Positions 1 through 34,917 of a DNA stretch of 37,416 nucleotides are shown here, one piece after another. Every line of letters starts with the position of its first letter. Positions within the stretch are counted from its first letter, which is position 1. The DNA is taken from positions 1-37,416 of IMG/VR virus record IMGVR_UViG_3300036845_000599; one strand, given 5' to 3'. The stretch comes from a virus. A model generated the notes under the pieces. That model was not told the origin of the DNA. It saw only the letters and a list, made by a program, of their open reading frames with translations, and searched no databases. The position numbers and the translations under genes are program-made.

Positions 1-839
1 AGCAGGGCAAGAAGAAGGGCGATACCTTCACCTGGGACGTGTTCTCGGATGTCGCCAACGCCGGCGGAATCCTCACCGAAACCAACACGATGCCGGAGAC
101 CAACTTCACCATCGTGCAGGGCACCCTCACGGTGACCGAGGGCGGTAATTCGATCCCTTATTCTGCGAAGCTCGACAACCTGTCGAAGTTCCCGGTCGAG
201 GACATCATCAAGAAGGTCCTCAAAAACGACGCGGTGAAGTTCTTCGATCGCCTGGCCTGGGGCCAGTTCAACCAGACGCTGCTGCGCGCGATCCCGGTGA
301 ACGGCAACAGCCCGAACGCGATCGTGCTCTACACCAACGGCACGGTGACGGGCAACAACAACGTGGCCTACTCGAACGCCCACGCCAAGGCGATCACCGA
401 TGCGATGAAGGAGCGCAACATCCCGGCGTATGTCGCGGACGACTACTACGCCTTGGGCTGGCCGACGACCTTGCGCACCTTGAAGAACGCGCTGGAGACC
501 ATCCACCAGTACTCGGACACCGGCTTCGGCCTCATCATGAACGCCGAGATCGGGCGTTACGAGAACACCCGGTACATCGAGCAGACCAACGTCGCCAAGG
601 GCTCGGGGTCAGACGGGGTGACCACCGTGCCCTGGGTGAACGGGCAGTCGGATTGGCTGTTCTTCTTCGGCAACGACACCGTGGCCGAGGCCGTGGTGGT
701 GCCCGAGGAGATGCGCGGCAAGATTCCGACCGACTACGGGCGCAGCAAGGGCATCGCCTGGTACTACCTGGGCGGCTTCGGGATCGTGCACACGCTCGCG
801 ACGAACGTGCGCATCGTCAAGTGGGACTCGGCCGCCTAA
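1..839 (+). CDS. Major capsid protein, N4-gp56-like (5' partial)
   Basis: The frame is open to the left edge (first full codon at base 3), so the N-terminus is missing; 278 residues are visible. The fragment has the look of N4-gp56/P22-type HK97-fold capsid proteins: a Lys/Gly-rich GKKKGDTFTW stretch, a later Leu-rich helix region, and a C-terminus in which a GIAWYYLGGFGIVH segment leads to a final RIVKWDSAA strand. A strong hairpin follows the stop codon and small virion genes follow that, as usual for a capsid gene. It would form the head shell. The family call rests on pattern and position, not on an alignment. The GTG at 39 is internal and is not the real start. Confidence 0.75.
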   Translation, partial: QGKKKGDTFTWDVFSDVANAGGILTETNTMPETNFTIVQGTLTVTEGGNSIPYSAKLDNLSKFPVEDIIKKVLKNDAVKFFDRLAWGQFNQTLLRAIPVNGNSPNAIVLYTNGTVTGNNNVAYSNAHAKAITDAMKERNIPAYVADDYYALGWPTTLRTLKNALETIHQYSDTGFGLIMNAEIGRYENTRYIEQTNVAKGSGSDGVTTVPWVNGQSDWLFFFGNDTVAEAVVVPEEMRGKIPTDYGRSKGIAWYYLGGFGIVHTLATNVRIVKWDSAA

Positions 840-3054: not shown

Positions 3055-4830
3055 ATGACCTGGAAAATCACCGACCCGCAAGGGCATGAGGCGGCGAAAG
3101 TCCGCTGGGAGCTGGTGCGCTGGACCCGCGGCCGCGGGCTCGACATCGGCGCCGGCATGACCCGCACCTTTCAGCACTTCATCACCGTCGATAACAACAT
3201 CGACGCGCAGCTCTTCGGCCACCCGATGCCCCGCCCGGACCTGTACGTCACCGACGGCGGGGACCTGTCGATCCTCGCCGACGCCTCCATGGACTTCATC
3301 TTCTCGTCCCACATGCTCGAGCACGTGGAGGAGGAGCGCCTGGTGAAGGTCTTACGCGAGTGGCTGCGCGTGCTCAAGATGGGCGGGCGCCTGATCCTGT
3401 ATCTCCCGGACGCGGACGAGTACCCGAAGGTGGGCGAGGAGGGCGCGAACAAGGATCACAAGTGGAACGTGACCTACAACCGGGTGCTGGAGCTCATGGG
3501 CCACACCGGGGTGGGCTTTGATCTCATGGACTACCAGAAGCGCAACGCCGGATTTGAGTACTCGTTGTTCTTTGTGTTCAAAAAGGCCCACGAGACCCCG
3601 CGCGCCTTCCACCACGATCGGCCGCGACCCACCGCCAAAACCTGCGCGGTGATCCGCTACGGGGCGATCGGCGACATGATGCAGGCGGCCTCGGTGCTGC
3701 GCGCCTTGAAGGAGGAGGGCTACCACACGACCCTCTACGCCGCCGAGGAGCCCAATGGCTGGGAGGTCCTGCAGCACGACCCGCATGTGGATGAGTTCTA
3801 CATCCAGGGGCGAGGCCAGGTCCCCGACCAGCACCTCCCGGAGTTCTGGGCCAACGAGCGCCCGAAGTACGACAAGTGGGCGAACCTCTGCGAGAGCGTG
3901 GAGGGCGGGCTCCTCGCGATGTCGAATCGCCCCGTCGACACCTACTCGCCCGTGGCGCGGCACCAGATGCTCGACTTCAACTACGTCGAGCGCCAGCACT
4001 TGATCGCCGGCGTCATGCAATATCCACCGCGCGTGCATTTTTATGCAAACGCCGCCGAGGTGAAGTGGGCGCACGCCGAGAAGAAGGCCTTCGGCCAGTT
4101 CCTGGTGCTCTGGTCGCTGTCCGGCTCCTCCGTGCATAAAGTGTGGCCGTGGGTCGATAACATCGTCTCAGGGCTGCTCTTGGACTTCCCCGAGGTCACG
4201 GTGGTGTTCGTCGGCGGCGCCGATGGCGTCATCCTCGAGCAGGGCTGGGAGCAGGCCACCGGGCGCGTACACCGCCGCGCCGGCAAGTACACCATCCGCG
4301 AGACCTTGAGCCTCGCGCAGATCGCCGACGTGGTGATCGGGCCCGAAACCGGCGTGCTCAATTCGGTGAGCCACGAGGAGATGCCCAAAGTCATCTTCCT
4401 GTCGCACTCCACGGTGGAGAACCTGACCCGCGACTGGTGCAACACCCACAGCCTGGTGTCGGTCGGCACCGTGTGCCAGGGCCGCGGCAACGATGAGGCG
4501 CCGGCGTGCCACCGCCTGCACCACGGCTGGGCCCGTTGCACGGAAGCCCCGCCGCTCCCCGGCACCGAGGATCAGCACGAGCGCAAGGGCTCCGGGATCG
4601 CCCAGTGCCAGATGGACATCGGCGCCGAGGACGCCTACCGGGTCATCTGGCACGTGGTGCAGTGGCGCCTCGAGGAGTACGCGAAGCGCGACGGTAAGCC
4701 GCCGCCCGGGGTGGTGAAGCTCACGGATGAGGAGGTGGCGCGCACCCGCGCGATGCTGCCGAAGTACATGGAGAACCCCGCCCAGGTGATCCAGGAGAAG
4801 CCGCCCGAGAAGAGCGTGCTCGAGGTGTAG
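3055..4830 (+). CDS. Methyltransferase-GT9 glycosyltransferase fusion
   Basis: A 591-residue two-domain enzyme. Residues about 25-180 are a class I SAM-dependent methyltransferase: motif I LDIGAGMTR at 29-37, an acidic loop after TVDNN, and SSHMLEHVEE at 84-93 of the Methyltransf_11 type. Residues about 195-590 resemble GT9 heptosyltransferases (WaaC/WaaF type): KTCAVIRYGAIGDMMQA opens a Rossmann fold, and the second half contains VVIGPETGVLNSVSH, the position of the nucleotide-sugar site. GT9 enzymes normally move heptose from ADP-heptose to LPS core. The start ATG has GAGGAG before it. It lies inside the virion module although it is an enzyme, and genes for ADP-heptose synthesis lie at 27382-30454. 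The acceptor could be LPS, a virion protein or another glycan. Domain calls are strong, substrate unknown. Confidence 0.8.
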   Translation: MTWKITDPQGHEAAKVRWELVRWTRGRGLDIGAGMTRTFQHFITVDNNIDAQLFGHPMPRPDLYVTDGGDLSILADASMDFIFSSHMLEHVEEERLVKVLREWLRVLKMGGRLILYLPDADEYPKVGEEGANKDHKWNVTYNRVLELMGHTGVGFDLMDYQKRNAGFEYSLFFVFKKAHETPRAFHHDRPRPTAKTCAVIRYGAIGDMMQAASVLRALKEEGYHTTLYAAEEPNGWEVLQHDPHVDEFYIQGRGQVPDQHLPEFWANERPKYDKWANLCESVEGGLLAMSNRPVDTYSPVARHQMLDFNYVERQHLIAGVMQYPPRVHFYANAAEVKWAHAEKKAFGQFLVLWSLSGSSVHKVWPWVDNIVSGLLLDFPEVTVVFVGGADGVILEQGWEQATGRVHRRAGKYTIRETLSLAQIADVVIGPETGVLNSVSHEEMPKVIFLSHSTVENLTRDWCNTHSLVSVGTVCQGRGNDEAPACHRLHHGWARCTEAPPLPGTEDQHERKGSGIAQCQMDIGAEDAYRVIWHVVQWRLEEYAKRDGKPPPGVVKLTDEEVARTRAMLPKYMENPAQVIQEKPPEKSVLEV

Positions 4831-19788: not shown

Positions 19789-20246
19789 GCTACAAGGTCG
19801 TCGGCTGGCTGCTCCTCCTCGCCGCGTGGTCGGGCTTTTGCTACTGGCAGGGAGGCCAGGGCACGCGCCTCGAGGTGGCGACCCAACAAGAGACGATCGA
19901 CGCCAAACTCGAGACGAAGCGGGCGAACGATGAAACGATAGTGCAAAAAGAAGGAACGACCTATGCCAAGGCCACCGCGGCTCCCATCCCTGACGCTGTC
20001 GCTCCTGTTGTCAGCGTGTGCTACTACCGCACAGCCCCCGCCGTGCCAAGCGCCCGCCCCGCCGGATCCGGCGCTCATGAGCCCGCCGCCGTACCAAACG
20101 CGGGTGGAGGGGATCCTTATCTGCCTGCTCCCACCCTCATCCGATGGAACACCAAACCCCTTGTGCGAATCGGGCGCGACGCCGACGCCCAAGTAGCGGG
20201 CCTGCAGGACTACATCAACCGGGTGTGCTTGGCGAAGGCGCCCTAG
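19785..20246 (+). CDS. Rz: Rz, inner-membrane spanin subunit
   Basis: 153 residues. One N-terminal signal-anchor helix (VVGWLLLLAAWSGFCYWQGG) is followed by a charged, mostly helical periplasmic domain, the layout of the i-spanin that joins the inner membrane to the outer-membrane lipoprotein Rz1. The Rz1 gene lies wholly inside it in another frame, as in lambda, which is the strongest evidence. Start ATG 19785 overlaps the previous stop. The gene ends at a CTAG shared with the stop of the convergent methyltransferase gene. A spanin pair implies a host with an outer membrane. Confidence 0.8.
   Translation: MSYKVVGWLLLLAAWSGFCYWQGGQGTRLEVATQQETIDAKLETKRANDETIVQKEGTTYAKATAAPIPDAVAPVVSVCYYRTAPAVPSARPAGSGAHEPAAVPNAGGGDPYLPAPTLIRWNTKPLVRIGRDADAQVAGLQDYINRVCLAKAP
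19963..20196 (+). CDS. Rz1: Rz1, outer-membrane spanin lipoprotein (nested in Rz)
   Basis: 77 residues in a different frame from Rz and entirely inside it. A basic start and hydrophobic stretch lead to the lipobox LLSAC with Cys19 (SLTLSLLLSACATT), followed by a Pro-rich mature region (QPPPCQAPAPPDP) as in other Rz1 proteins. A Shine-Dalgarno-like AAGAAGGAA lies just upstream of the ATG. It would be lipidated, sorted to the outer membrane and bind Rz to fuse the membranes at lysis. Confidence 0.8.
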   Translation: MPRPPRLPSLTLSLLLSACATTAQPPPCQAPAPPDPALMSPPPYQTRVEGILICLLPPSSDGTPNPLCESGATPTPK

Positions 20247-20992
20247 AGCTCGAACGCTCCTTGCGGGCCGGTGGCCTCGAGGACGGCGCGGGCCAGAACC
20301 TTGCACATCGGAAAGGGCACCGCGTTGCCCAGCATGGTGCCCTGGCCCTTCTTGGTGAAGGGGGAATGGTCGAAGAAGTTGCGCGGCAACCCCTGCAGCT
20401 CGCACGCCCGGGCGATTGAACGGCCGTGCCGCATGGAGAGCGCCCCCGGGCGGTTCGCCTTCAACTTCCCGCCGCTTGCAAGTTTGATCGGGGCGCCCCG
20501 CTTGTAGTCCGACGCACACACCCGGAAATCCCAGTCAGCATTCTCGAGTGCCGCGGTGTCGAAATGCAGGCGCCGACCATCGCGGGTGCCAAAGGAGAAA
20601 CGGTGCCGGCGCGACTGAACGCCGCCAATCCACCGATTATCGAGAAGCGCCGGGTCGACCTGGTAGCCCGCCACCACGGGGAGCGGAGCGCCCTGGACGT
20701 TTTCCATCACGAACCACGCCGGCTGCGCCTCGAGGCACACCCGCTCAAATTCGGGGATCAGGTTCTCCCCTTCCTTGTAGCCGTTGTGGCGAATGATGTG
20801 GATCAGGCGCGAGAAAGCCTGGCACGGGCTTCCCCCGATCACCCCGTCAAAGCGCCCCGCCGGCGCGTGAAAGCGCTTGATATCGCCGCCCCACAGCAAG
20901 TCCGGGCCGCGAACCACGCAGAAGCCCTCCTCCTCGAACGCCTTGTCCAGAATCCCGATGCCCGGGAAGAGGCTCAACACCACCCCGCTCAC
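20243..20992 (-). CDS. C5-cytosine DNA methyltransferase
   Basis: 249 residues, GTG start in GTGA. Family motifs in order: I, LSLFPGIGILDKAF (6-19); IV, GGSPCQAFS (53-61) with catalytic Cys57; VI, MENVQ (96-100); VIII, QSRRHRFSFG (126-135); X, GQGTMLGNAVP near the C-terminus. It is shorter than stand-alone bacterial enzymes, with a reduced target-recognition region, so specificity cannot be read. No restriction partner is visible, so it is an orphan, plausibly protecting phage DNA from host restriction or altering gene expression. Last gene of the leftward operon; its stop overlaps that of Rz on the other strand. Confidence 0.85.
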   Translation of the reverse strand: MSGVVLSLFPGIGILDKAFEEEGFCVVRGPDLLWGGDIKRFHAPAGRFDGVIGGSPCQAFSRLIHIIRHNGYKEGENLIPEFERVCLEAQPAWFVMENVQGAPLPVVAGYQVDPALLDNRWIGGVQSRRHRFSFGTRDGRRLHFDTAALENADWDFRVCASDYKRGAPIKLASGGKLKANRPGALSMRHGRSIARACELQGLPRNFFDHSPFTKKGQGTMLGNAVPFPMCKVLARAVLEATGPQGAFEL

Positions 20993-25765: not shown

Positions 25766-26237
25766 ACCGACGGCGCACGCGGGCCTGTACAAGAAGGACG
25801 GCTCCTTGGGCGTGGTGCCGCGCATCGCCGCCTTCACGGAGCTTGCCATCGATCACAAGTTCGAGAACGCCACGGTACGCATGACCGGGAGCAGCATCGA
25901 GGCGGCCACCTTCTCGGGCGCGAAGATCAAGTCGATCAAACTCGGCCTGCAACCGGGCGGCCTGACCCTGGTGCACTTCACCCTGCAGGTGAACCCCGAG
26001 AACGGCATCGATGTGCCGAAGCTCTTGAACGCCAAGATCTCGATCGGCATCAAGTCGGCTGAGCTCGAGGAGGACGGCGCCGGCGATGAGCCCGAACTGC
26101 CGCTCGAGCATTCGACGCCGGAGATCCTGGACGCCATGCGCGAGGAGGAAGAGGCCACCGCCTCCGCGATGGGCCGCAAGATCGGCAACGCCGACAAGAA
26201 GGCGGCGAAGAAGAAACCGCGGCGGGACGTCAATTGA
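25611..26237 (+). CDS. Conserved phage protein, unknown function
   Basis: 208 residues from ATG 25611, preceded by GGAGAG. The N-terminal part, with a KHG/HGTDEV-type turn (INTRTEMHGTDEVPGLDIPI), resembles a protein family common near phage recombination and replication genes. The middle is beta-rich and the C-terminus is acidic then basic, ending KKAAKKKPRRDVN. Fold suggests a sheet-based binding protein. The family has no settled function as far as I know. Confidence 0.6.
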   Translation: MLKLTLTKRPAKIGKSINTRTEMHGTDEVPGLDIPITGILINEEELALLCDEPTAHAGLYKKDGSLGVVPRIAAFTELAIDHKFENATVRMTGSSIEAATFSGAKIKSIKLGLQPGGLTLVHFTLQVNPENGIDVPKLLNAKISIGIKSAELEEDGAGDEPELPLEHSTPEILDAMREEEEATASAMGRKIGNADKKAAKKKPRRDVN

Positions 26238-26497
26238 GCGCCGTCTGGAAGTACCCGCTCGCCATGACCGGCGTGCAGGACGTGGAGCTGCCCGAGGGCT
26301 CCGGAATCCTGGCCGTGCAACCGCAGGGCACCGGGGTGTGCCTGTGGGCCTTCGTGCATCCGGAGCGCCCGAAGGTCAAGCGTGAGATCCTGATCTTCGG
26401 CACCGGCCATGAGATACCGGAGCACCTGGTGCTCACCCACCTGGAAACCTTCCAGATGGGGCCGCTCGTGTTCCACGCCTTCGAGCGTGGCCGATGA
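26234..26497 (+). CDS. Small conserved phage protein (DUF7352-like)
   Basis: 87 residues from TTG 26234 (TTGA overlap). WKYPLAMTGVQDVELPEGSG, then a VQPQGTGVCLWAFVHP strand, IFGTGHEIP and VFHAFERG near the end, the layout of a small beta-rich protein seen widely in phage early regions (DUF7352 by memory). Function unknown. Confidence 0.6.
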   Translation: MSAVWKYPLAMTGVQDVELPEGSGILAVQPQGTGVCLWAFVHPERPKVKREILIFGTGHEIPEHLVLTHLETFQMGPLVFHAFERGR

Positions 26498-26814
26498 GCC
26501 CGCAGAACGAGGACGGCTCGGAGTACATCGACCAGGAGACCGCGCAAGCACTCGCGGCCCGGGTCGATGACCTCAACAACGACTTGAACCAGGCGCGCCA
26601 GCTCGCCGGGCGCATCTACAACCGCCTGCAGGCCTCGGACGTGCCGCGCGGGCCCTGGCACGGGGAGATCTCCTCCTGGATGGCCCCCGTGACCAAGGCG
26701 GCGCAGAAGTACGGCCGCAGGCTCCTGCCGTGTGTGGTGGAGGGGTGCGGCCGGGAGCGGGTCAACCAGCACTTCTGCCAGCACCACATCGACCTGTGGA
26801 ACCTGCCCGGATGA
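26494..26814 (+). CDS. Small protein with C-terminal zinc finger
   Basis: 106 residues, ATGA overlap. N-terminal acidic helix with a DDLNNDLNQARQLAGRI heptad-like part. C-terminal CVVEGCGRERVNQHFCQHH gives Cys2-Cys-His ligands for a zinc finger. Possibly nucleic-acid binding. No family named. Confidence 0.55.
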   Translation: MSPQNEDGSEYIDQETAQALAARVDDLNNDLNQARQLAGRIYNRLQASDVPRGPWHGEISSWMAPVTKAAQKYGRRLLPCVVEGCGRERVNQHFCQHHIDLWNLPG

Positions 26815-27179
26815 CCGAGCGGATGAACTTGGAGCAGTTCCGCGCCGCGGTGGGCCTGCGCGGCCGCTCGGCGAAGTACGACAACCAGAAGGCCGTGGTG
26901 GGGGATCGCAAGTTCGACAGCAAGTTGGAGGCCCTGCGCTTCATCTACTGGGAGAACCTGTGGCGGGCGAAAGCCATCCACTACTTCCTGACCCAGGTGC
27001 CTTTCCGGCTGCCCGGGGGTATTGTCTACCGCCTCGATTTTCTCATCGTGCATCTGGACGGCCCGCCCACCTACGAGGACACCAAGGGGGTGCTCACGCG
27101 GGTGTCCACCAACAAGATCAAACAGGTCGAGGAGATCTACCGCATCAAGATCGACCTCGTGAAGAAGGGGAAAACATGA
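26811..27179 (+). CDS. DUF1064 / PD-(D/E)XK nuclease-like protein
   Basis: 122 residues; ATG 26811. KYDNQKAVVGDRKFDSKLEA opens the fold, QVPFRLPGGIVYRLDFLIVH supplies the conserved D, and YEDTKGVLTR gives the E/D-x-K element, the order of the PD-(D/E)XK fold. DUF1064 proteins are predicted Holliday-junction resolvases or single-strand-specific nucleases in phages. It would act on phage DNA during recombination or packaging. Confidence 0.7.
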   Translation: MTERMNLEQFRAAVGLRGRSAKYDNQKAVVGDRKFDSKLEALRFIYWENLWRAKAIHYFLTQVPFRLPGGIVYRLDFLIVHLDGPPTYEDTKGVLTRVSTNKIKQVEEIYRIKIDLVKKGKT

Positions 27180-27385
27180 ACGTCAATGCGAACGGCGAGG
27201 ACACCGAGTTCGAGGACTGGTCCCACCCGACCTCCCCCCGCGCGGTGTACCTGCCGCACGGCCGCTTCACCTTCAAGAGCGTCGCCGTCGGGCTCTTAGT
27301 CACGGCCTTCACCGTCGGCGCGATCGCCATGTGCTGGCAGATCGGCGCCATCGTGCACGCGGCCTGGCGGGCGCGCTTCGGATGA
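27176..27385 (+). CDS. Small single-pass membrane protein
   Basis: 69 residues, ATGA overlap. Acidic N-terminus, then one transmembrane helix (SVAVGLLVTAFTVGAIAMCW) and a short C-terminal tail. It directly precedes the heptose-isomerase gene and may sit in the inner membrane. Role unknown. Confidence 0.55.
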   Translation: MNVNANGEDTEFEDWSHPTSPRAVYLPHGRFTFKSVAVGLLVTAFTVGAIAMCWQIGAIVHAAWRARFG

Positions 27386-27939
27386 GCCGCGACTGGATCG
27401 ACGCGGTGGCGGAGCACTCCGACCTGGTGGCGGCGTTGTCCGCGGTGCTGGCCTCGCAGCTCGACCCGGCCATCTCCATGCTCGCCTACGCTCTGGTCGA
27501 GGGGCACAAGATCCTCACCTGCGGCAACGGCGGGAGCGCCGGCGATGCCTCGCACCTGGCCACCGAGCTCTGCGTGCGCTACGTCAAGGACCGCAAGGCC
27601 CACCCGGCCTTGTCCTTGGCGGCCGACGCCGGGATCCTGACCGCGGCGGCGAACGACTACGGCTACCAGGCGGTGTTCGCCCGCCAGGTCGAGGCCTACG
27701 GACGCCCCGGGGACGTGCTGGTCGCCTTCTCGACCTCCGGGCGCTCCAAGAACGTGCTCGAGGCGATCGGCCGGGCGAAGCTCGCGGGCTTAGGCACCTT
27801 GGGCATCTGCGGCGCCCACCCGCTCTCCTGCGATGTCGATATCTGCATCCCCTCGACCTCGACGGCGCGCATCCAGGAATGCACGCTGCTGGTCCTCCAC
27901 CTGATCGTTGAAGCCCTCGAGGAGCGCCTACCGCCATGA
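27382..27939 (+). CDS. gmhA: GmhA-like sedoheptulose-7-phosphate isomerase
   Basis: 185 residues (bacterial GmhA is about 190), ATG 27382 in ATGA. SIS-domain isomerase motifs: CGNGGSAGDASHLATELC (48-64), NDYGYQAVFARQVEAYG (91-107), STSGRSKNVL (117-126) and ARIQE (162-166). The zinc ligands of GmhA keep their spacing: His58, Glu62, Gln165 and His173. GmhA converts sedoheptulose 7-phosphate to D-glycero-D-manno-heptose 7-phosphate, the first step to ADP-heptose. It heads a group of heptose genes (kinase 28628, adenylyltransferase 30011), each coupled to unrelated small genes. Confidence 0.9.
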   Translation: MSRDWIDAVAEHSDLVAALSAVLASQLDPAISMLAYALVEGHKILTCGNGGSAGDASHLATELCVRYVKDRKAHPALSLAADAGILTAAANDYGYQAVFARQVEAYGRPGDVLVAFSTSGRSKNVLEAIGRAKLAGLGTLGICGAHPLSCDVDICIPSTSTARIQECTLLVLHLIVEALEERLPP

Positions 27940-28631
27940 TCATCGTTTGCGACACCTGCCACGAGGAGTTCGAGCAGGAGGCCTTCAAGGGCCACCCGTG
28001 CGCCCCGCCCAGCGACGAGCCGCCGGCCGAAGCCCCCCACAACATCCCCGGGGCGGGTGCGCTCGGCCAGTCTGCGGAGAGCTTCGAGGCCCACCGGATC
28101 AGCGCCTTGGCCGCCTCCGGGCCGCTCCCGGCCGTGGTGGTCAAACCCCCACACGAGCTCGCGCTCAAGGACGAGGCGAAACGCATGGCGATTCTGGCGA
28201 AGCCGTTCTTGGATGAGATTCGCCGGGGCTTGACGACCGAGGTGGATACGCTCCGCCAGGACATCGCCGACTCGAACCGCCTCTTGAAGCACCTGGACGT
28301 GCCCCTCGAGCAGGTGGCCGACTCCCACGAGCGCGCCGCGTCCTCCTTCGAGAACCTGCGCGCGGAGATCCGCAGCGTCTCGGATCGCCTGGGCGCCGTG
28401 GAGGGGGTGATCGATACCGCCGGCCTCACCGCCGCGATGTCTGCGGCCGAGGAGCGCATGGCCTCGCTCGCGGCCGCCATCCGGATCCAGTTCACCGAGA
28501 CCTCGAAGAACATGGCCGAGGTCTTGAAGCTCCTGCAGAACTTGCAAGAGCGCGACATCGACCGTACCCGGGTGCGCATCAAGCGGGCGAGCCGCCGCGC
28601 GGTGAATAAGCACCGGGCCGTGCCCGCGTGA
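27936..28631 (+). CDS. Coiled-coil protein with N-terminal zinc ribbon
   Basis: 231 residues; ATG 27936 in ATGA. CDTCHEEFEQEAFKGHPC (5-22) supplies Cys/His ligands. A Pro-rich link follows, and about 90-215 is one long helical region with Leu/Ile heptads (ADSNRLLKHLDVPLEQVA). The basic C-terminus ends RRAVNKHRAVPA. Lies between the isomerase and kinase genes but shows no sugar-enzyme motif. May be a DNA- or complex-binding protein. Confidence 0.55.
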   Translation: MIIVCDTCHEEFEQEAFKGHPCAPPSDEPPAEAPHNIPGAGALGQSAESFEAHRISALAASGPLPAVVVKPPHELALKDEAKRMAILAKPFLDEIRRGLTTEVDTLRQDIADSNRLLKHLDVPLEQVADSHERAASSFENLRAEIRSVSDRLGAVEGVIDTAGLTAAMSAAEERMASLAAAIRIQFTETSKNMAEVLKLLQNLQERDIDRTRVRIKRASRRAVNKHRAVPA

Positions 28632-29467
28632 TGAGCGCCGTGCGCTTGAAGAACGCCGTGCTGGTGGAGATCGTCAAGGCGATGCACGGGGTGTGTGTCG
28701 CGGTCTTAGGCGACCCCATGCTCGACTACTACCACTTCGGCCGGGTCGAGCGCTTGTCCCCGGAGGCGCCGTGCCCGATCTTCGTCGAGGAGAAGCTGGA
28801 CCTGCGCGACGGCGGCGCCCACAACGTGGCGGCGAATCTTGCCGGCCTCGGGTGTCACGTCATCCAAATCTTCCCGCCGCCGCCCTGGACCATGAAGCAC
28901 CGATATCTCGTCGGCGCCCACCAGCTCTTCCGGATCGACCGCGACAAGGACCACAGCCAGCAGACGCACGACGGTGCGCCGAAGGAGGGGGACTGGCGCG
29001 CGCTCGTCATCTCCGATTACGCCAAGGGCTGGTGCACCACCGATCGGTGCCAGGAGTGGATCGCCCAGGCGAAGGCCAAGGGCGTGCCGGTGATTGTGGA
29101 CCCGAAGGGCACGGCCTGGGGGAAGTACCACGGTGCCACCTTCATCTGCCCGAACGAGGCGGAGTACCAGGCGGTCGACAAGACCCAATACGTGGAGGGG
29201 CGGAACATCCTCCACAAGCGCGGTGCCGCGGGCATCGAGCTGCACCTGAAGGACAGCAACGAGGTCGCGCAGCTCGAGCACCAGGCGAAGCACGTGTACG
29301 ACGTGACCGGCGCCGGCGACACCGTGGTCGCGGTGTTCGCGGCCGCCCAGGCGGTCGGCTGCTCGGCCTGGCACGCGGCGAGCCTCGCCAACATCGCCGC
29401 CGGCGTGGTGGTCGGCCAGGTGGGCACCTTCCCAATCAGCGCTGCAGCGCTCCTTGCGGAGCTCTAG
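28628..29467 (+). CDS. hldA: HldA-like heptose-7-phosphate kinase (RfaE domain I)
   Basis: 279 residues; GTG 28628 in GTGA, or ATG 28631. PfkB/ribokinase fold with RfaE-type signatures: GDPMLDYYHFGRVERLSPEA (28-47), GGAHNVAANLAGLG (62-75), VDPKGTAWGKYHGATFICPN (157-176) and VTGAGDTVVA (226-235) with catalytic Asp231. It would phosphorylate heptose 7-phosphate at C1. Compared with about 315 residues in bacterial domain I, roughly 35 are missing between residues 75 and 95, where the family has its GVVGDD-type segment and part of the lid. This is the separate-kinase (HldA) layout rather than fused HldE. Confidence 0.85.
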   Translation: MMSAVRLKNAVLVEIVKAMHGVCVAVLGDPMLDYYHFGRVERLSPEAPCPIFVEEKLDLRDGGAHNVAANLAGLGCHVIQIFPPPPWTMKHRYLVGAHQLFRIDRDKDHSQQTHDGAPKEGDWRALVISDYAKGWCTTDRCQEWIAQAKAKGVPVIVDPKGTAWGKYHGATFICPNEAEYQAVDKTQYVEGRNILHKRGAAGIELHLKDSNEVAQLEHQAKHVYDVTGAGDTVVAVFAAAQAVGCSAWHAASLANIAAGVVVGQVGTFPISAAALLAEL

Positions 29468-29469
29468 AG

Positions 29470-29697
29470 ATGGCGATGAAGGCGGTGATGAGCCCAGATA
29501 TCGAGCGACGGCGCTCGCTCCTGGCCGCGCTCGAGGCGAAGCCCGCCGCCAAACCCGAAGAGCGAATCGCGGTGAACGGCCCGTGCCGGCTCACCAAGAA
29601 GGAACGGCGGGCCGGGGAGACCAAGGCGTTTCGCAACCGGCGCGAGAAGAGCCGCAAAAAAGCAAAACTGGCGAAGGCCTCGAGGAAGCGCAAATGA
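29470..29697 (+). CDS. Small highly basic protein
   Basis: 75 residues from ATG 29470. The C-terminus is very Lys/Arg-rich (TKKERRAGETKAF, then KSRKKAKLAKASRKRK). Likely binds nucleic acid; no family recognised. Lies between the kinase and adenylyltransferase genes without any sugar-related motif. Confidence 0.5.
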   Translation: MAMKAVMSPDIERRRSLLAALEAKPAAKPEERIAVNGPCRLTKKERRAGETKAFRNRREKSRKKAKLAKASRKRK

Positions 29698-30014
29698 GTG
29701 ACCTGATCGGACTCGATCGAGTGTTGGACGACATCAAGCGAAAGCGCCAGCGCCAGGTGGTGGTGCACCGCTGGACCCGGGCGCATGACGACACGCACAC
29801 CGAGGGCGAGCTCGGCCGCGGCGCGATCACCTTCATCCAAGCGGCGTACATGACGGAGCTCGGCCTCAATCGGGAGGAGCTGCCGGTGTTCTGGCCCTTC
29901 GACTGGGTGGAGGGTGAGGGCAAACCGAACATCGACCAGCCGCGGCGCGAATTGCTGGTCAACGCCGCGGCGCTGCTCGTGGCCGAGCTCGAGCGTCTGG
30001 ACCGAATCCCATGA
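29694..30014 (+). CDS. Small acidic/mixed protein, unknown
   Basis: 106 residues, ATGA overlap. Basic first third, then acidic with a DWVEGEGKPNIDQPRRELLV segment and a C-terminal helix of Leu/Ala/Glu (LLVNAAALLVAELERL), of a type seen in phage proteins of unknown role that help nucleotide or DNA metabolism. No catalytic motif recognised. Confidence 0.5.
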   Translation: MSDLIGLDRVLDDIKRKRQRQVVVHRWTRAHDDTHTEGELGRGAITFIQAAYMTELGLNREELPVFWPFDWVEGEGKPNIDQPRRELLVNAAALLVAELERLDRIP

Positions 30015-30454
30015 AGGTGGGGCTGTGCACCGGCTGCTTCGATCTCCTGCACGAGGGGCACCTGTATTTCCTCGAGCAGGCGACGGACGCGTGCGACTAT
30101 CTGGTGGTGGCGGTCAACTCCGACCGCTCGGTGGCGCGCTTGAAGGGACCGGGGCGCCCTGTGCATAACTTGCAGGACCGGCTCTACAACCTCATGGCGC
30201 GCGCCCCCGGGGCGGGCGCCTTCGTCCCCTTCGACGGCGATCATGAGCGGCTGATCATGTGCGTGCGCCCCGATGTGGTCATCAAGGGATACGATCACGG
30301 CACGGTGAACGAGGAGGTCTACGCCGCCCGCCGGCCGGGCTGGAAGGACCAGGCACACGGCATGGATATAATCCCAGTGGTGCGTGCGAAACATCTCAAA
30401 GGCTACTCGACTACCTTGCAAATCGCGCAAGCGATGGGTAAAACGAACGCGTGA
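30011..30454 (+). CDS. hldC: HldC-like adenylyltransferase (RfaE domain II)
   Basis: 147 residues, near the usual 150-160. A cytidylyltransferase-superfamily enzyme: GCFDLLHEGH (8-17) with the HxGH motif, VNSDRSVARLKGPGRP (35-50), VIKGYDHGT and the family-specific GYSTT (131-135). It would join heptose-1-phosphate to AMP from ATP, giving ADP-heptose. The usual KGGDY is KGYDH. Encoded separately from the kinase, as in the HldA/HldC arrangement. ATG 30011 overlaps the previous stop by 4 bases. GmhB phosphatase and HldD epimerase are absent from the window, so host enzymes may fill those steps. Confidence 0.9.
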   Translation: MKVGLCTGCFDLLHEGHLYFLEQATDACDYLVVAVNSDRSVARLKGPGRPVHNLQDRLYNLMARAPGAGAFVPFDGDHERLIMCVRPDVVIKGYDHGTVNEEVYAARRPGWKDQAHGMDIIPVVRAKHLKGYSTTLQIAQAMGKTNA

Positions 30455-30687
30455 AACCGAACGCCATGCACCGCCTCGCCCACCGCGGCACCCACGCCGG
30501 GTGCTGTGCCAAGGGCTGGGAGACGGTGCCGAAGGTGACCGGCGACCCCGACTTCGACGCGACCATCATGCACCGGAAGAACCGCGACATGCCGGCGCGC
30601 CTGGCGCAGCACCTCGCCATCCCGGCCGTGACCTATGGGCCGCGCACGAGCTACCACAGCTATTCGGCGAATCACGGCGATGACTGA
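30451..30687 (+). CDS. Small His-rich unknown protein
   Basis: 78 residues from GTG 30451 (GTGA). Contains THAGCCAKGWE and a C-terminal SYHSYSANHGDD; no motif I can name. Could be an assembly or metal-binding factor. Confidence 0.45.
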   Translation: MKPNAMHRLAHRGTHAGCCAKGWETVPKVTGDPDFDATIMHRKNRDMPARLAQHLAIPAVTYGPRTSYHSYSANHGDD

Positions 30688-30862
30688 CAGCGACATCGAG
30701 AACGTCTACAAGTCGAATCTCGGGGTCTCGCACTATGCGGGCCTGCGGGCCGTCTACGATGCCGGCTACGCCGATGCCTTGGGCAGCTTGACCCCGCCGA
30801 GCACGGATGTGTCGCAGGCCGCGAGTGCCCCGCAGACCGACGCCACGATTGTCACCCCATGA
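30680..30862 (+). CDS. Small unknown protein, end of the accessory operon
   Basis: 60 residues from ATG 30680, overlapping the previous gene by 8 bases. The NVYKSNLGVSHYAGLRAVYD part is well formed; the last 25 residues are Ser/Thr/Pro/Ala-rich and disordered. Two hairpins follow. Confidence 0.45.
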   Translation: MTDSDIENVYKSNLGVSHYAGLRAVYDAGYADALGSLTPPSTDVSQAASAPQTDATIVTP

Positions 30863-30882
30863 AGCTCATACACCACCACGTT

Positions 30883-30911
30883 ATTTAACCCCGAGAGAAC
30901 CGGGGTTAAAT
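30883..30911 (+). terminator. 11-bp hairpin downstream of the accessory operon
   Basis: Perfect 11-bp stem ATTTAACCCCG/CGGGGTTAAAT around a 7-base loop, 20 bases after the stop at 30862. No T-run follows, so it may be a Rho-dependent or partial terminator or an mRNA-end protector. Confidence 0.6.
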
Positions 30912-30916
30912 CGGGA

Positions 30917-30936
30917 GGGGGAGGGCAACCTCCCCC
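30917..30936 (+). terminator. 8-bp GC hairpin with GCAA tetraloop
   Basis: Perfect stem GGGGGAGG/CCTCCCCC closed by GCAA, a stable GNRA loop, 5 bases after the first hairpin. The pair together probably separates the accessory operon from the packaging module, or forms a structured leader for the gene at 31009. Confidence 0.55.
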
Positions 30937-31008
30937 GTCCCTCAAACCCCACCTATACTGTGTTCCACACGCAGTTTTCCCCCTCGGGGCAGCAGCAGGA
31001 GAAGAACG

Positions 31009-31398
31009 ATGGCGAAGCACACCCTCAAGGACATCCTCCAAATATTCGCGACGCACGCGGGCCACACCCACGAGGCGGCCGTACAGGCTACCTACGACGC
31101 GGGTCACGCGGCCGGGGTCGCCGAGGTGAAGGAGAAGATCCTCGCGGGCGATAAGGGTTTGCACGCCGAGCTCGACGCCCGCCAGGACGCGATCGATTTC
31201 GACAAGGCCGCCAAGCGCGCCGAGATCGAAGCCAACGACAAGAAGATCGCCGAACAGGCCGCAGCCGAGAAGGCTAAAGCCAAGGCCGGCGCGAAGGCCA
31301 AGCCCCAAACCGAGGGAGACGCGAGTGACCAAAAAGAAACCGAGACCGCCGAAACGGACGAAGACCGCAAAGCCAAGCAGGACGCCGCGGGCCCCTAA
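31009..31398 (+). CDS. Ala/Lys/Glu-rich helical protein
   Basis: 129 residues from ATG 31009, with AGGAG at 30997-31001. The N-terminal 45 residues (HTLKDILQIFATHAGHTHEA, then an ATYDAGHAAG turn) give a mixed segment; the rest is a long low-complexity Ala/Lys/Glu helix with an acidic disordered end. First gene of the packaging module. May be a scaffold or DNA-associated protein; no family named. Confidence 0.55.
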   Translation: MAKHTLKDILQIFATHAGHTHEAAVQATYDAGHAAGVAEVKEKILAGDKGLHAELDARQDAIDFDKAAKRAEIEANDKKIAEQAAAEKAKAKAGAKAKPQTEGDASDQKETETAETDEDRKAKQDAAGP

Positions 31399-31417
31399 GC
31401 CCCCGGCGTTTGACTAG
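31325..31417 (+). CDS. Possible overlapping Lys/Pro-rich micro-protein
   Basis: 30 residues from GTG 31325 in a different frame from the preceding gene's tail, with GAGGGAG 7-9 bases before it. Very basic and Pro-rich (TKKKPRPPKRTKTAKPSRTP). Its stop lies 3 bases before the next start. Could be real or a by-product of low-complexity coding. Confidence 0.35.
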   Translation: MTKKKPRPPKRTKTAKPSRTPRAPKPPAFD

Positions 31418-31420
31418 GCG

Positions 31421-33007
31421 GTGCGGGAGCTCATCCCCCGCCCCGTCGCCGAGCTCGTCCCCTACGCCAAGAACGCGGCGATCCACACCGACGAGGACGT
31501 GGCGCAGATTGCGGCGTCGATCACCGAGTTCGGCTGGACCTCGCCGGTCCTGATCGACGAGGACGGCGCGATCATCGCCGGCCACGGCCGCGTGCTCGCC
31601 GCGCAATACCTCAACATGGTCGAGGTGCCGACCATCACCTTGGAAGGCCTGACCCCCGCCCAGGTCAAAGCCTACCGCCTGGCCGACAATCGCCTGCCGC
31701 GCAACGCCGGCTGGAACGAGGAGCTGCTGGCCCTCGAGCTGCAGGACTTGAAGGCCCTGGGCTTTAACCTTGATCTCACCGGCTTCGACAAGATGGAGCA
31801 GCTGCAGTTTTTGGACTGGAAGGTGCCCGGCGAGCACGAGAGTGCCTCGGACGAGCTCCCGGCCGTGCTCCTGGCCCCCGTGTCCGAACGTGGCACGGTG
31901 TGGCAGTTGGGCCCGCACCGGGTCATGTGCGGGGACAGCACCGCGGCGGACGATGTAGCGCAGCTGCTCGAGGGCGCGGACAAGGCGGCGCTGCTGCACG
32001 CGGACCCGCCCTACGGCATGGGCAAGGAGGCGGACGGGGTGTTGGGCGACAACCAGTACGGGGCCGAGCTCGACGCCTTCCAGATGCGCTGGTGGGCCGC
32101 CTGGCTGCCGTACCTCGAGAGCAACGCCGCCGCCTATATCTGGGGCAACCCCTTGGACCTGTGGCGCCTGTGGCACGGCTCCCTCGAGCGCTCCGGGTGC
32201 ATGACGTACCGCAACGAGATCGTCTGGAACAAGGGCAGCGCCCCCGGCATGGCCTCGCACGAGCGGCGCATGTACACCACGGTGACGGAGCGGTGCTTAT
32301 TTTTCATGCTCGGGCGCCAGGCCTTCGGCAACACCAACAAGGACGACTACTGGGACGGCTTCGAGCCGCTGCGCCGCTACCTCGAGGGCGAGGCGCAGAA
32401 GATGCGCTGGTCGGCGAAGCACATCCAGACCATCACCGGGGTGGGGATGTACGGCCATTGGTTCTCCAAATCCCAGTGGGTGATGATCCCGCGCAAGCAC
32501 TACCAGGCGTTGCAGGAGGCGGCCGAGGGGGCCGCCTTCACCCGCCCCTTCCTCGAGCTGCGGGCGGAATACGACCGCCTCTTGGGCTCGGGCGGGCACC
32601 TGGCACCGAAGGCCGAGTTCTACGACTCGCGCGCCTACTTCGACAACACCCACGAGGTGATGACCGAGGTGTGGGAGTTCTCCCGGGTGGTGGGCGAGGA
32701 GCGCTTCAGCCACGCGACGCCGAAGCCGGTGAAGATGATCGAGCGGGCCATCAAGAGCGCGGCGCCCTCCGGTGCGCTGGTGCTCGAGCCCTTCGGCGGC
32801 ACGGGCTCCACGCTCCTCGCGGCGGCCGGTCTCGGGCGCACCTGCTACAGCATGGAATTGGAGCCGCGGTATGTGGACGTGATCGTGCGGCGCTGGCAGG
32901 CCTTTACCGGGGAAGAGGCGTTCAACTCGGCCGGGCAATCCTTCACCGAGGCGGAGAAAATTACCGCCTATAAAGAGCAGGAACGTGGCGCACCAGCCGA
33001 CGCTTGA
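31421..33007 (+). CDS. ParB-N / DNA methyltransferase fusion
   Basis: 528 residues from GTG 31421. Residues 1-110 are a ParB-like nuclease/DNA-binding domain: IPRPVAELVPYAKNAAIHTD, then DGAIIAGHGRVLAAQ (48-62). Residues about 155-500 are a DNA methyltransferase with DPPY at 195-198 and VLEPFGGTGSTLLAAAGLG from 454, motif IV before motif I as in beta-class N6-adenine / N4-cytosine enzymes. This fusion is common next to phage terminases. It probably methylates phage DNA to avoid restriction or to mark packaging or replication sites. Confidence 0.85.
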   Translation: MRELIPRPVAELVPYAKNAAIHTDEDVAQIAASITEFGWTSPVLIDEDGAIIAGHGRVLAAQYLNMVEVPTITLEGLTPAQVKAYRLADNRLPRNAGWNEELLALELQDLKALGFNLDLTGFDKMEQLQFLDWKVPGEHESASDELPAVLLAPVSERGTVWQLGPHRVMCGDSTAADDVAQLLEGADKAALLHADPPYGMGKEADGVLGDNQYGAELDAFQMRWWAAWLPYLESNAAAYIWGNPLDLWRLWHGSLERSGCMTYRNEIVWNKGSAPGMASHERRMYTTVTERCLFFMLGRQAFGNTNKDDYWDGFEPLRRYLEGEAQKMRWSAKHIQTITGVGMYGHWFSKSQWVMIPRKHYQALQEAAEGAAFTRPFLELRAEYDRLLGSGGHLAPKAEFYDSRAYFDNTHEVMTEVWEFSRVVGEERFSHATPKPVKMIERAIKSAAPSGALVLEPFGGTGSTLLAAAGLGRTCYSMELEPRYVDVIVRRWQAFTGEEAFNSAGQSFTEAEKITAYKEQERGAPADA

Positions 33008-33446
33008 GACCCGCAAGACCGTCGAGAACGCCTCGGGCCTGGGAATCCCGCAAGAATCGATCGCGATCCTGCTCGAGATCACGCCGAAGACCTTGCGCCG
33101 CAAGTACCGCCGCGAGCTCGACCAGGGCAAGGCGAAGATGGACGTCACCGCCGGCGGTCAGATTGCGAAGGGCATCCTGCGCGGCGACACCGGGCTCCTG
33201 ATCTTCTACGCTCGCACCCGCATGGGGTGGAAGCCGCCGCCGACCGAGATCACGACGCCGCCCGATCGGCCGCTTGAGACCAAAACCTACGTGTCGGGGT
33301 CGCCCGAGCTCCTGGCGGACTACTATGCAAAGATTGCTCAAGCAGCCGCTGCCGCTGATACCGATCCCACAGCTCCTCGCATTGTGGGACCAGGAGGACG
33401 GGGGGGGGACGAACCGGAAGAAGATCCGGAGCTTGGCCCTCGGTGA
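32985..33446 (+). CDS. terS: Terminase small subunit-like protein
   Basis: 153 residues from GTG 32985, overlapping the methyltransferase stop by 23 bases. A helix-turn-helix occupies about 15-45 (ASGLGIPQESIAILL, then ITPKTLRRKYRRELDQGK), followed by a helix with GDTGLLIFYARTRMGWK, the pattern of phage small terminase or DNA-recognition proteins. The C-terminus is acidic (GGDEPEEDPELGPR). Directly precedes the large subunit and shares 122 bases with it across a G9 run. It would recognise the packaging site and regulate the motor. Confidence 0.65.
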   Translation: MAHQPTLETRKTVENASGLGIPQESIAILLEITPKTLRRKYRRELDQGKAKMDVTAGGQIAKGILRGDTGLLIFYARTRMGWKPPPTEITTPPDRPLETKTYVSGSPELLADYYAKIAQAAAAADTDPTAPRIVGPGGRGGDEPEEDPELGPR

Positions 33447-34917
33447 TCGCTTCTACCTCCTGGTCAAGGTCCTAAAGCGCGGCGACTGCCTGCACCCGTG
33501 GATTTACGCTCGGTGCCGCGAGGTCGAGGCGGCGCCGGACAACCACTTGGACCTCTGGGCCCGCGAGCACTACAAGTCCACCATCATCACCTTCGCCGGG
33601 ATCATCCAGGAGCTCTTGAACGACGCCGAGCTCACGGTGGCGATCTTCTCGCACAGCAAGCCGATCGCGAAGGCTTTCCTGCGCCAAATCCAGCGCGAGT
33701 TCGAGAAGAACGACACCTTGAAGGAGCTTTTTCCTGAGATTCTGTGGGCGAACCCCGAGCGCGAGGCGCCGCTCTGGGCCCTGGACGACGGGATAGTCCT
33801 CAAGCGCCAGGGGAACCCGAAGGAGGCGACGATCGAGGCGCACGGCCTGGTGGACGGGCAGCCGACGTCGCGCCACTTCGCCCTTCGGGTGTATGACGAC
33901 GTGGTGACCCGCGAGAGCGTGGCGACGCCCGAGCAGATCGAGAAGACCACCGGCGCCTGGTCGCTCTCGGACAACTTGGGCAAAGTGGGCGGGCGAGTGT
34001 GGATGGTCGGCACCCGCTACAACTTCGCCGACACCTACAGCGTGGTGATCAAGCGCGGCGCCGCCATCCCCCGGGTGTACGCCGCCACGCACAACGGGCT
34101 GCGCGACGGCCGCCCGGTGCTCCTGTCCCCGAAGGCCTGGGCGGAGAAGCTGGTCAAGCAGTTGGACGCCGACATCGCGTGCCAGATGCTCTTGAACCCC
34201 GTGGCGGGCCAGCAGCGCTTCTTCGACCCGGACAACCTGCGGGCGTATGAGACTCGCCCTGCGGTGCTGGCCGCGTACCTGACCATCGACCCGGCCCGCT
34301 CGAAGAAGAAGGGCAGCGCCAACACCGCGATGGCCGTGCAGGGCATCGACATCCACGGCCAGAAGTACCTGCTGGACGGCTTCGATCACAAGATGGACCT
34401 GGCCGAGCGCTGGACCAACATGCGCGACCTTCGCAACAAGTGGCACCGCATGCCCGGGGTGATCTCCTTGAAGGTGGGCTACGAGACCTACGGCGCGCAG
34501 GCGGACATGGACTACTTCGAGGAGCGCATGCGCCTCGAGAACAACCGCTTCGAGATCGTGGAGCTCGAGTGGCCGAACGAGGGGTCGGGCGGCAAGGATG
34601 ACCGGGTGCAGCGCTTAGGGCCCGATCTCAAGGCCCACGCCTACTTCCTGCCCCACCCCACGGACTACGACGAGCTCACCCCCGCCCAGGTGCGCATGAT
34701 CGCCGCCGGCTACGAGTACCGGCTCTCGCAGAAGATCGAGCAGTTGGACGAGAACGGGCTAAAGTACGACCTCGCCGAGCGCCTGGCCATGCAGGTCGGC
34801 TTCTACCCGTTCACGGGACTTAAGGACCTCATCGATGCAGTGGCGAGAATCTACGACATGGATCCGCGTCCGCCCCAGTGGGTGGAGGAAGGGCCGATCG
34901 AGCCGGACGAGGTGTGA
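33325..34917 (+). CDS. terL: Terminase large subunit
   Basis: 530 residues from ATG 33325; a TTG at about 33433 is a possible later start that would remove the overlap. The ATPase half has an adapted Walker A, DLWAREHYKSTIIT (76-89), and Walker B LRVYDDVVT (187-195). A nuclease half follows, with TIDPARSKKKG (320-330) and a GYETYGAQADMDYFEERM segment of RNase H-like type. It cuts concatemers and pumps DNA into the head through the portal. Confidence 0.85.
   Translation: MQRLLKQPLPLIPIPQLLALWDQEDGGGTNRKKIRSLALGDRFYLLVKVLKRGDCLHPWIYARCREVEAAPDNHLDLWAREHYKSTIITFAGIIQELLNDAELTVAIFSHSKPIAKAFLRQIQREFEKNDTLKELFPEILWANPEREAPLWALDDGIVLKRQGNPKEATIEAHGLVDGQPTSRHFALRVYDDVVTRESVATPEQIEKTTGAWSLSDNLGKVGGRVWMVGTRYNFADTYSVVIKRGAAIPRVYAATHNGLRDGRPVLLSPKAWAEKLVKQLDADIACQMLLNPVAGQQRFFDPDNLRAYETRPAVLAAYLTIDPARSKKKGSANTAMAVQGIDIHGQKYLLDGFDHKMDLAERWTNMRDLRNKWHRMPGVISLKVGYETYGAQADMDYFEERMRLENNRFEIVELEWPNEGSGGKDDRVQRLGPDLKAHAYFLPHPTDYDELTPAQVRMIAAGYEYRLSQKIEQLDENGLKYDLAERLAMQVGFYPFTGLKDLIDAVARIYDMDPRPPQWVEEGPIEPDEV

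Follow-up and report, generated by a model that had tools for sequence, protein, structure and literature searches.

Putative ADP-heptose synthesis genes and a candidate heptosyltransferase-fold protein in a phage lineage

The virus record IMGVR_UViG_3300036845_000599 was analysed over its whole length (positions 1-37,416; 37,416 nt, hereafter the window). Genes for a GmhA-like isomerase, an HldA-like kinase and an HldC-like nucleotidyltransferase form one translationally coupled run (27382-30454), and a further gene beside the capsid genes (3055-4830) encodes a methyltransferase fused to a divergent domain of the GT9 (heptosyltransferase) fold, for which we use the shorthand MT-GT. As the most economical account we propose, with a probability of roughly 0.4, that the phage provides its own MT-GT with ADP-D,D-heptose, most likely for glycosylating a virion component. 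According to this proposal the three enzymes would supply ADP-D,D-heptose, the sugar would stay in the D,D form because no HldD was found, and MT-GT would then transfer the heptose, possibly methylated, to an acceptor that is most likely part of the virion. MT-GT, overlooked in the initial annotation of this DNA, is a likely consumer of ADP-heptose.

The coupled heptose gene run

For each of the three proteins the best NCBIfam match is the respective heptose family, with a score below the curated equivalog cut-off; for this reason they are named GmhA-like, HldA-like and HldC-like. The GmhA-like protein, a predicted sedoheptulose 7-phosphate isomerase of 185 aa (27382..27939, plus strand), matches NF010546 (E 1.8e-49; 168.2 bits, cut-off 276) and TIGR00441 (E 5.7e-47; 159.6 bits, cut-off 209.45), and among the SIS families NF010546 beats DiaA (1.2e-30). 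Its profile matches the phosphoheptose isomerase 1tk9 in the PDB with E 1.5e-58. Residues H58, E62, Q165 and H173, which we take to be the zinc ligands of GmhA, are all present in the window and invariant across the eight aligned sequences, window included. A ninth sequence, from record G050 (G-numbers denote virus records related to the window and L-numbers their loci, with L005 in G004, L029 in G014 and L158 in G050), has glutamine instead of H58 and further changes nearby (frame G050:25969-26715). This record has no kinase, as expected if GmhA and the kinase share a pathway. No cyanophage record was found by tblastn with the GmhA-like protein of the window.

The HldA-like heptose 7-phosphate kinase (28628 or 28631..29467, plus strand; 279 or 278 aa) matches TIGR02198 rfaE_dom_I with E 5.4e-62 (209.7 bits, cut-off 345), the next unrelated NCBIfam family following at E 1.3e-6. 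Its profile matches Burkholderia HldA (4e84) with E 7.1e-55 and the next PDB entry with 4.2e-7. The predicted model (predicted local distance difference test, pLDDT, 83) aligns with 4e84 at Z 29.6 and 36% identity, compared with Z 24.3 and 16% for the next structure other than HldA. The model thus supports, at the subfamily level, a PfkB-type fold closest to HldA. Like bacterial HldA the phage protein is a standalone kinase; unlike it, the phage kinase is shorter and stays under the equivalog cut-off. The GAGD motif is invariant (8/8). Compared with E. coli HldE, the aligned kinases of the window lineage and of cyanophage P-SSM2 lack the same stretch of about 28 residues. PHROG assigns no function to its families phrog_14703 and phrog_8133, yet they match the GmhA-like and HldA-like proteins of the window.

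The HldC-like protein, a predicted heptose 1-phosphate nucleotidyltransferase of 147 aa (30011..30454, plus strand), matches TIGR02199 rfaE_dom_II with E 8.9e-27 (93.7 bits, cut-off 181.5). In its HxGH motif H14, G16 and H17 are invariant (6/6), and the C-terminal STT of the window reads STS in three relatives. Compared with solved structures its profile is less specific than those of the isomerase and the kinase, matching phosphoethanolamine cytidylyltransferase (9.6e-22), the putative cytidylyltransferase 5x9q (1.3e-19) and 3glv, a protein named for lipopolysaccharide (LPS) core biosynthesis (1.5e-12). An arginine at position 5 of the STTR5 motif, (F/L)XXGRSTT, is described as a mark of promiscuous enzymes (HENases) making CDP- and UDP-heptose (PMC11461863, PMC11573728). 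The corresponding motif in the window, HLKGYSTT, has tyrosine at position 5 and histidine at position 1, so that the STTR5 arginine is absent.

Three open reading frames (ORFs), all on the plus strand, are interleaved with the heptose genes. The first (27936..28631, 231 aa, function unknown) has an N-terminal Cys motif and a coiled coil with weak SMC-like matches; it lies at the gmhA-hldA junction in the nearer relatives only and is absent there in many loci (e.g. L052-L060, L064-L073). The second is small and basic (29470..29697, 75 aa, no family found), and the third (29694..30014, 106 aa) matches the C-terminal part of the unknown-function families phrog_6628 and phrog_9763. Stop and start codons overlap at the junctions gmhA/27936, 27936/kinase, 29470/29694, 29694/hldC and hldC/30451, while a 2-nt gap lies between the kinase gene and the 29470 gene. 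Ratios of non-synonymous to synonymous substitution rates (dN/dS) against the nearest relatives indicate purifying selection: 0.12 for gmhA, 0.33 for the kinase, 0.10 for hldC, 0.07 for MT-GT and 0.03 for the large terminase gene TerL. Chance ORFs are ruled out, because the profile matches are strong and dN/dS is low.

GmhB was not found in the window; the GmhB model NF006506 matched in 2 of 50 records, the window not among them. HldD was found in none of 20 records, window included, using the E. coli protein as query and a match to its own gene as the sole control. A set of 20 records that were pieced together, picked for length or content, is referred to below as the pieced records. What the initial annotation had observed at the locus holds: a GmhA with all four zinc ligands, three genes interleaved with small genes and expressed together (supported by the overlaps, with one short gap after the kinase), and the lack of GmhB and HldD. 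Profile searches, which it had proposed as a check, agree for the isomerase and the kinase and are less specific for the HldC-like protein; the predicted model of the kinase agrees as well. The enzyme identities and the joint expression that it had named find support at the level of subfamilies.

MT-GT, a methyltransferase fused to a GT9-fold domain

MT-GT (3055..4830, plus strand) combines an N-terminal S-adenosylmethionine (SAM) methyltransferase part with a divergent GT9-fold domain (residues about 193-540), and the fusion is present in most of the relatives aligned. The top Foldseek match of the predicted model is E. coli WaaF (1psw, E 1.7e-10). Over residues about 191-545 the model aligns with the GT9 structure 3tov at Z 22.5 (278 residues, 3.6 Å), with WaaF 1psw at Z 21.2 (283 residues, 4.4 Å), with WaaC at Z up to 19.0 and with TibC at Z 17.0-17.2; three plant NDH-PSI complex entries stand in the same list with Z 18.2-19.5. 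Nine phage GT domains were combined in a profile, which hhalign matched to four E. coli heptosyltransferases with E 1.7e-8 (probability 95.4%, 239 columns) and to WaaF alone with weaker values (E 0.00031, probability 39.5%). As a control, two E. coli enzymes which we take to belong to GT8 gave E 0.57 and a probability of 0.1%. A heptosyltransferase II model matched weakly in two of eight relatives scanned (E 0.022 and 0.024). The C-terminal part of MT-GT had no Pfam match, PDB sequence searches with the GT9 domain gave nothing, and tblastn with the whole protein found nothing in the phage records searched.

Positions D13, K195, D269 and H274 of WaaF (the latter two in D269-S-G-L-M-H274) presumably belong to the active site. 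Over 263-283 aligned residues MT-GT shares the fold of WaaF, WaaC, TibC and 3tov and keeps the equivalents of D13 and K195 as D207 and K362, both invariant in the phage alignment; unlike these proteins it is fused to a methyltransferase, and the equivalents of D269 and H274 are changed. TibC is described as using ADP-D,D-heptose and transferring D,D-heptose to a protein target (PMC4358343). The major head protein gene, cut by the window start (3..839, plus strand; phrog_1357, E 3.5e-11), puts MT-GT in the capsid block, and MT-GT lies between capsid and head-closure genes in 17 of the 20 pieced records. For G040 and G050 the same order would have to span the contig ends, and G049 differs.

In the C-terminal part of the GT9 domain four invariant cysteines (residues 474, 485, 495 and 518) come after the catalytic motif. 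They possibly form a metal finger, with a spacing that differs from that of the TibC iron finger.

Distribution in the lineage and weighing of the proposal

The co-occurrence of kinase and MT-GT was examined in 67 distinct virus records: the window, 25 other records, 24 records from a scan for kinase loci and 17 more from a capsid-anchored scan. Genes in relatives, including those with 55% GC, were located by tblastn and open-frame scans. MT-GT was found in 43 of the 67 records, the kinase in 33 and both in 14. Fourteen of the kinase records are at least 19 kb long; MT-GT is present in 13 of the 14 and missing from G048, which has a kinase of just 27% identity. Among the 19 shorter ones MT-GT was found in G017 and in none of the other 18. 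Thirteen of the 20 pieced records contain MT-GT and cover 4 kb or more of the region upstream of TerL, and the kinase is present in eight of these 13 (G000, G002, G009, G015, G026, G028, G035, G040). Intervening small ORFs apart, the order gmhA, coiled-coil ORF, hldA, hldC, 30451 gene and TerL recurs in loci L002-L006 and L011; in L009 gmhA and the coiled-coil ORF are present at this place, and neither hldA nor hldC.

Three relatives argue for the proposal: G049 by the clustering of GT9, hldA and hldC genes, G009 by a GmhB-like gene, and G050 by the joint loss of kinase and H58. Also in its favour are the enzyme identities, the GT9 fold and profile match, the presence of MT-GT in 13 of the 14 longer kinase records, its place in the capsid block, and TibC as a structural match that transfers D,D-heptose to a protein. 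G049 is divergent, with a capsid match and no TerL match. Within about 5.4 kb it has a row of genes for a methyltransferase, a sugar C-methyltransferase (PF08484, E 2.2e-41), a GT9 protein (Pfam GT9, E 0.00098; 18.9 bits, under the 22-bit cut-off), an endonuclease VII-like protein, HldA, a cupin-like protein and HldC. In G009 a 165-aa protein encoded just after hldC has GmhB as best NCBIfam match (7.4e-38; 129.9 bits, cut-off 178), so that this record holds all four genes (gmhA, hldA, hldC and GmhB-like). The second record with a GmhB-like gene, G035, had no gmhA that could be found. A bolder version, which we regard as tentative, is that the lineage runs its own protein heptosylation: the MT-GT of the capsid block would put D,D-heptose, perhaps methylated, on virions, and the sugar genes would be gained or lost according to host supply, with the full four-step set in G009.

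Several observations weigh against the proposal. The predicted model of the whole MT-GT protein has a mean pLDDT of 68, and the positions equivalent to D269 and H274 of WaaF are E431 and N436, two changed sites in the aligned active centre. The Pfam GT9 family PF01075 gave no match in the window even at E 10, and the domain is called divergent because the cut-off for this family was not reached. Of the 43 records with MT-GT, 29 showed no kinase, 20 of them being shorter than 30 kb, and four of the 13 pieced records that cover the region upstream of TerL (G014, G052, G060 and G062) combine MT-GT with the lack of any heptose gene; in such phages the GT9 domain would use host ADP-heptose or another donor. 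From the capsid-anchored scan 80 of 388 loci were kept, and 18 of the 80 served as control (17 from previously untested records with a length of 18 kb or more, plus G034 again). MT-GT occurred in 15 of the 18 and the kinase in one, G034, which has no MT-GT in its 18.4 kb. Since the link between kinase and MT-GT is confined to one lineage, shared descent explains part of it. Gene sets are often incomplete: the ten kinase-bearing pieced records have gmhA in six cases, hldC in eight and all three genes in four (G000, G002, G009, G028), and the 30 kinase loci scanned for all three genes (L048-L077) have the trio in 16 and gmhA without hldC in eight. The hldC match of G004 (L005) is interrupted by a stop.

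In L052, L053 and L055-L060 gmhA is followed directly by the kinase, and no hldC was found; G050 has MT-GT with gmhA and hldC only. Where sets are incomplete the remaining steps must come from the host, if the pathway runs there. A tight coupling of MT-GT to the heptose genes is weakened by the capsid-anchored control, which found MT-GT common and the kinase in 1/18, and the heptose cassette is thus an accessory locus in a lineage where MT-GT is widespread. On a TerL tree of 36 rows the presence of the kinase needs five changes, at least two of them forced by well-supported branches; the kinase is clustered on this tree (9 of 500 shuffles as low), many rows of which were chosen for having it.

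In the main rival explanation the target of the heptose enzymes and the GT9 protein is host LPS or a different glycan of the envelope, for a superinfection block or for envelope upkeep during infection. WaaC and WaaF, which are among the structural matches, act on LPS, and phage LPS genes, rfaE and other heptose genes included, are usually read as LPS modification in the accounts considered here (PMC7029224, PMC9529941, PMC7378029). Moreover, a GT4 glycosyltransferase is encoded near the same locus in three relatives: in G014 (L029:9531-11404) and G060 (4873-6704) a methyltransferase and a GT4 gene stand just upstream of the 30451-type gene, in the place that heptose genes take in other relatives, and the GT4 of G015 is similar. 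Nevertheless, the transferase gene lies in the capsid block, includes a methyltransferase part in most of the aligned relatives and is far commoner than the heptose genes; HldD was found in 0/20 records, whereas LPS core heptose is usually of the L,D form. Because of the capsid-block position and the lack of a detected HldD we favour a protein acceptor over the LPS core, and consider envelope modification possible though rather unlikely. A glycan on a virion protein had been one of the purposes suggested in the initial annotation; the GT9-fold protein beside the capsid genes supports it indirectly.

It is unlikely, in our estimate, that the cassette only boosts host ADP-heptose as an auxiliary metabolic module, with a GT9-like protein that uses another donor and a co-occurrence reflecting lineage history. 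MT-GT without heptose genes in four records, the incomplete sets, the five gains or losses of the kinase and the active-site substitutions would fit such a module; it would be harder to reconcile with the adjacency of GT9, hldA and hldC genes in G049 and with solved matches that include enzymes named as ADP-heptose users.

That the proteins act on other sugars, as members of other SIS, PfkB or cytidylyltransferase-like subfamilies, is improbable. All three stay below equivalog cut-offs, about 28 HldE residues are missing from the kinase, and the best PDB profile match of the nucleotidyltransferase is phosphoethanolamine cytidylyltransferase. On the other hand, three members of one pathway are encoded in one coupled run with their own heptose families on top in NCBIfam, and the fit of the kinase to HldA clearly exceeds that to the next structure in both Z and identity.

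A decoration of phage DNA with heptose, to which the DNA methyltransferase gene downstream could point, is very improbable, as heptosyltransferases acting on proteins and on LPS are found among the GT9 matches and no DNA-glycosylation gene was recognised among the proteins scanned. A heptose signal to ALPK1 in animal cells, also suggested initially, has gained nothing and is hardly credible: ADP-heptose is described as an ALPK1 agonist and viruses as carrying such enzymes (PMC11461863, PMC11573728), and an unverified 5.5-kb human-fecal scaffold holds distant relatives of the kinase (31% identity) and the nucleotidyltransferase (42%), but the STTR5 arginine is absent, the gain for the phage is not obvious, and no link to animals was seen for the lineage in an analysis that did not cover record habitats, its only cellular match being an Acidobacteriaceae contig.

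This contig, L047, is a 6.3-kb piece of a metagenome-assembled genome (isolate BOG_194) with MT-GT and capsid genes, and the sole match of the lineage in a genome collection. It is a weak hint at Acidobacteriaceae as host. Mis-binning is possible, because BOG_194 was the one genome matched by the capsid profile among 201 of its family.

Known viral heptose genes and genomic neighbourhood

The initial annotation had implied that the gene trio is rare, a view that is untenable. Working viral ADP-heptose enzymes have been reported (Tang et al. 2024, Science, as presented in the commentaries PMC11461863 and PMC11573728), and one of these commentaries adds that viruses lack the phosphatase. Genes for the kinase and the nucleotidyltransferase also occur in cyanophages, in some of them alongside an annotated isomerase, and together with other viral cases these refute novelty of heptose gene sets in phages. 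P-SSM2 resembles the window in its separate nucleotidyltransferase and kinase genes and in the kinase deletion; it has an annotated 114-aa phosphoheptose isomerase, and differs in its neighbours, a carbamoyltransferase and a nucleotide-sugar epimerase, with no GT9 annotated there. Further descriptions concern cyanophage SynMITS9220M01 with kinase, isomerase and epimerase (PMC7378029), rfaE in pelagimyophages (PMC7029224), viral WaaE/F/L (PMC9529941) and a cave phage contig with a heptose kinase/adenosyltransferase gene (PMC11671562). Caulobacter phage Cr30 was rejected as a further case, since the protein annotated there as a heptose kinase gave a poor alignment (18% identity) and looks GHMP-type by eye; it probably belongs to a different heptose pathway.

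Heptose gene sets in phages being known, the part worth testing is their possible link to a phage-encoded transferase. As in the viral nucleoside-diphosphate (NDP)-heptose systems of Tang et al. 2024, to judge from the commentaries, the window has heptose enzymes and lacks the phosphatase; unlike them it has a candidate consumer, MT-GT, and a relative, G009, with a GmhB-like gene for the very step reported absent from viruses. A search of the PMC literature, with subscription papers outside its range, brought up no phage with all four enzymes. Both commentaries call the role of the viral enzymes unsolved, and one of them suggests, for bacteria, that adjacent genes be examined (PMC11461863, PMC11573728). 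The lineage offers a concrete candidate answer, namely a phage-encoded heptosyltransferase-fold protein that is open to direct biochemical test. Glycans have been reported on the major capsid proteins of mycobacteriophages Che8 and Rita, together with phage glycosyltransferase genes (PMC11256854); the window likewise has a phage glycosyltransferase gene, and, unlike in these cases, the sugar supplied by the donor would be heptose.

Downstream of hldC a conserved 78-aa ORF (30451..30687, plus strand; homologue in 16 of the 20 pieced records) marks where the accessory locus ends ahead of TerL. It is followed by a gene for a ParB-like domain with a DNA methyltransferase (31421..33007, plus strand; phrog_498, E 1e-104; PF01555) just upstream of TerL (33274..34917, plus strand, start likely at 33325; phrog_38, E 3.8e-35). 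The window begins within the major head protein gene and ends just short of the portal, the next gene in L002. Positions 26000-34900 had no near-identity DNA match in 50,697 phage records, from which records very near the window were possibly excluded.

Other genes of the window gave additional matches. A protein encoded at 7622-8431 matches a short tail fiber in its N-terminal part and a SET domain in its C-terminal part (PF00856, E 1.8e-5). The region 20243-20983 on the minus strand partially matches DNA (cytosine-5) methyltransferases (TIGR00675, E 2e-12, under the cut-off). A PurD-like ATP-grasp protein (TIGR00877, E 1.5e-24, under the cut-off; PF02843) is encoded at 13141-14466 within the structural-gene block, and a homologue of this gene is present in 18 of the 20 pieced records.

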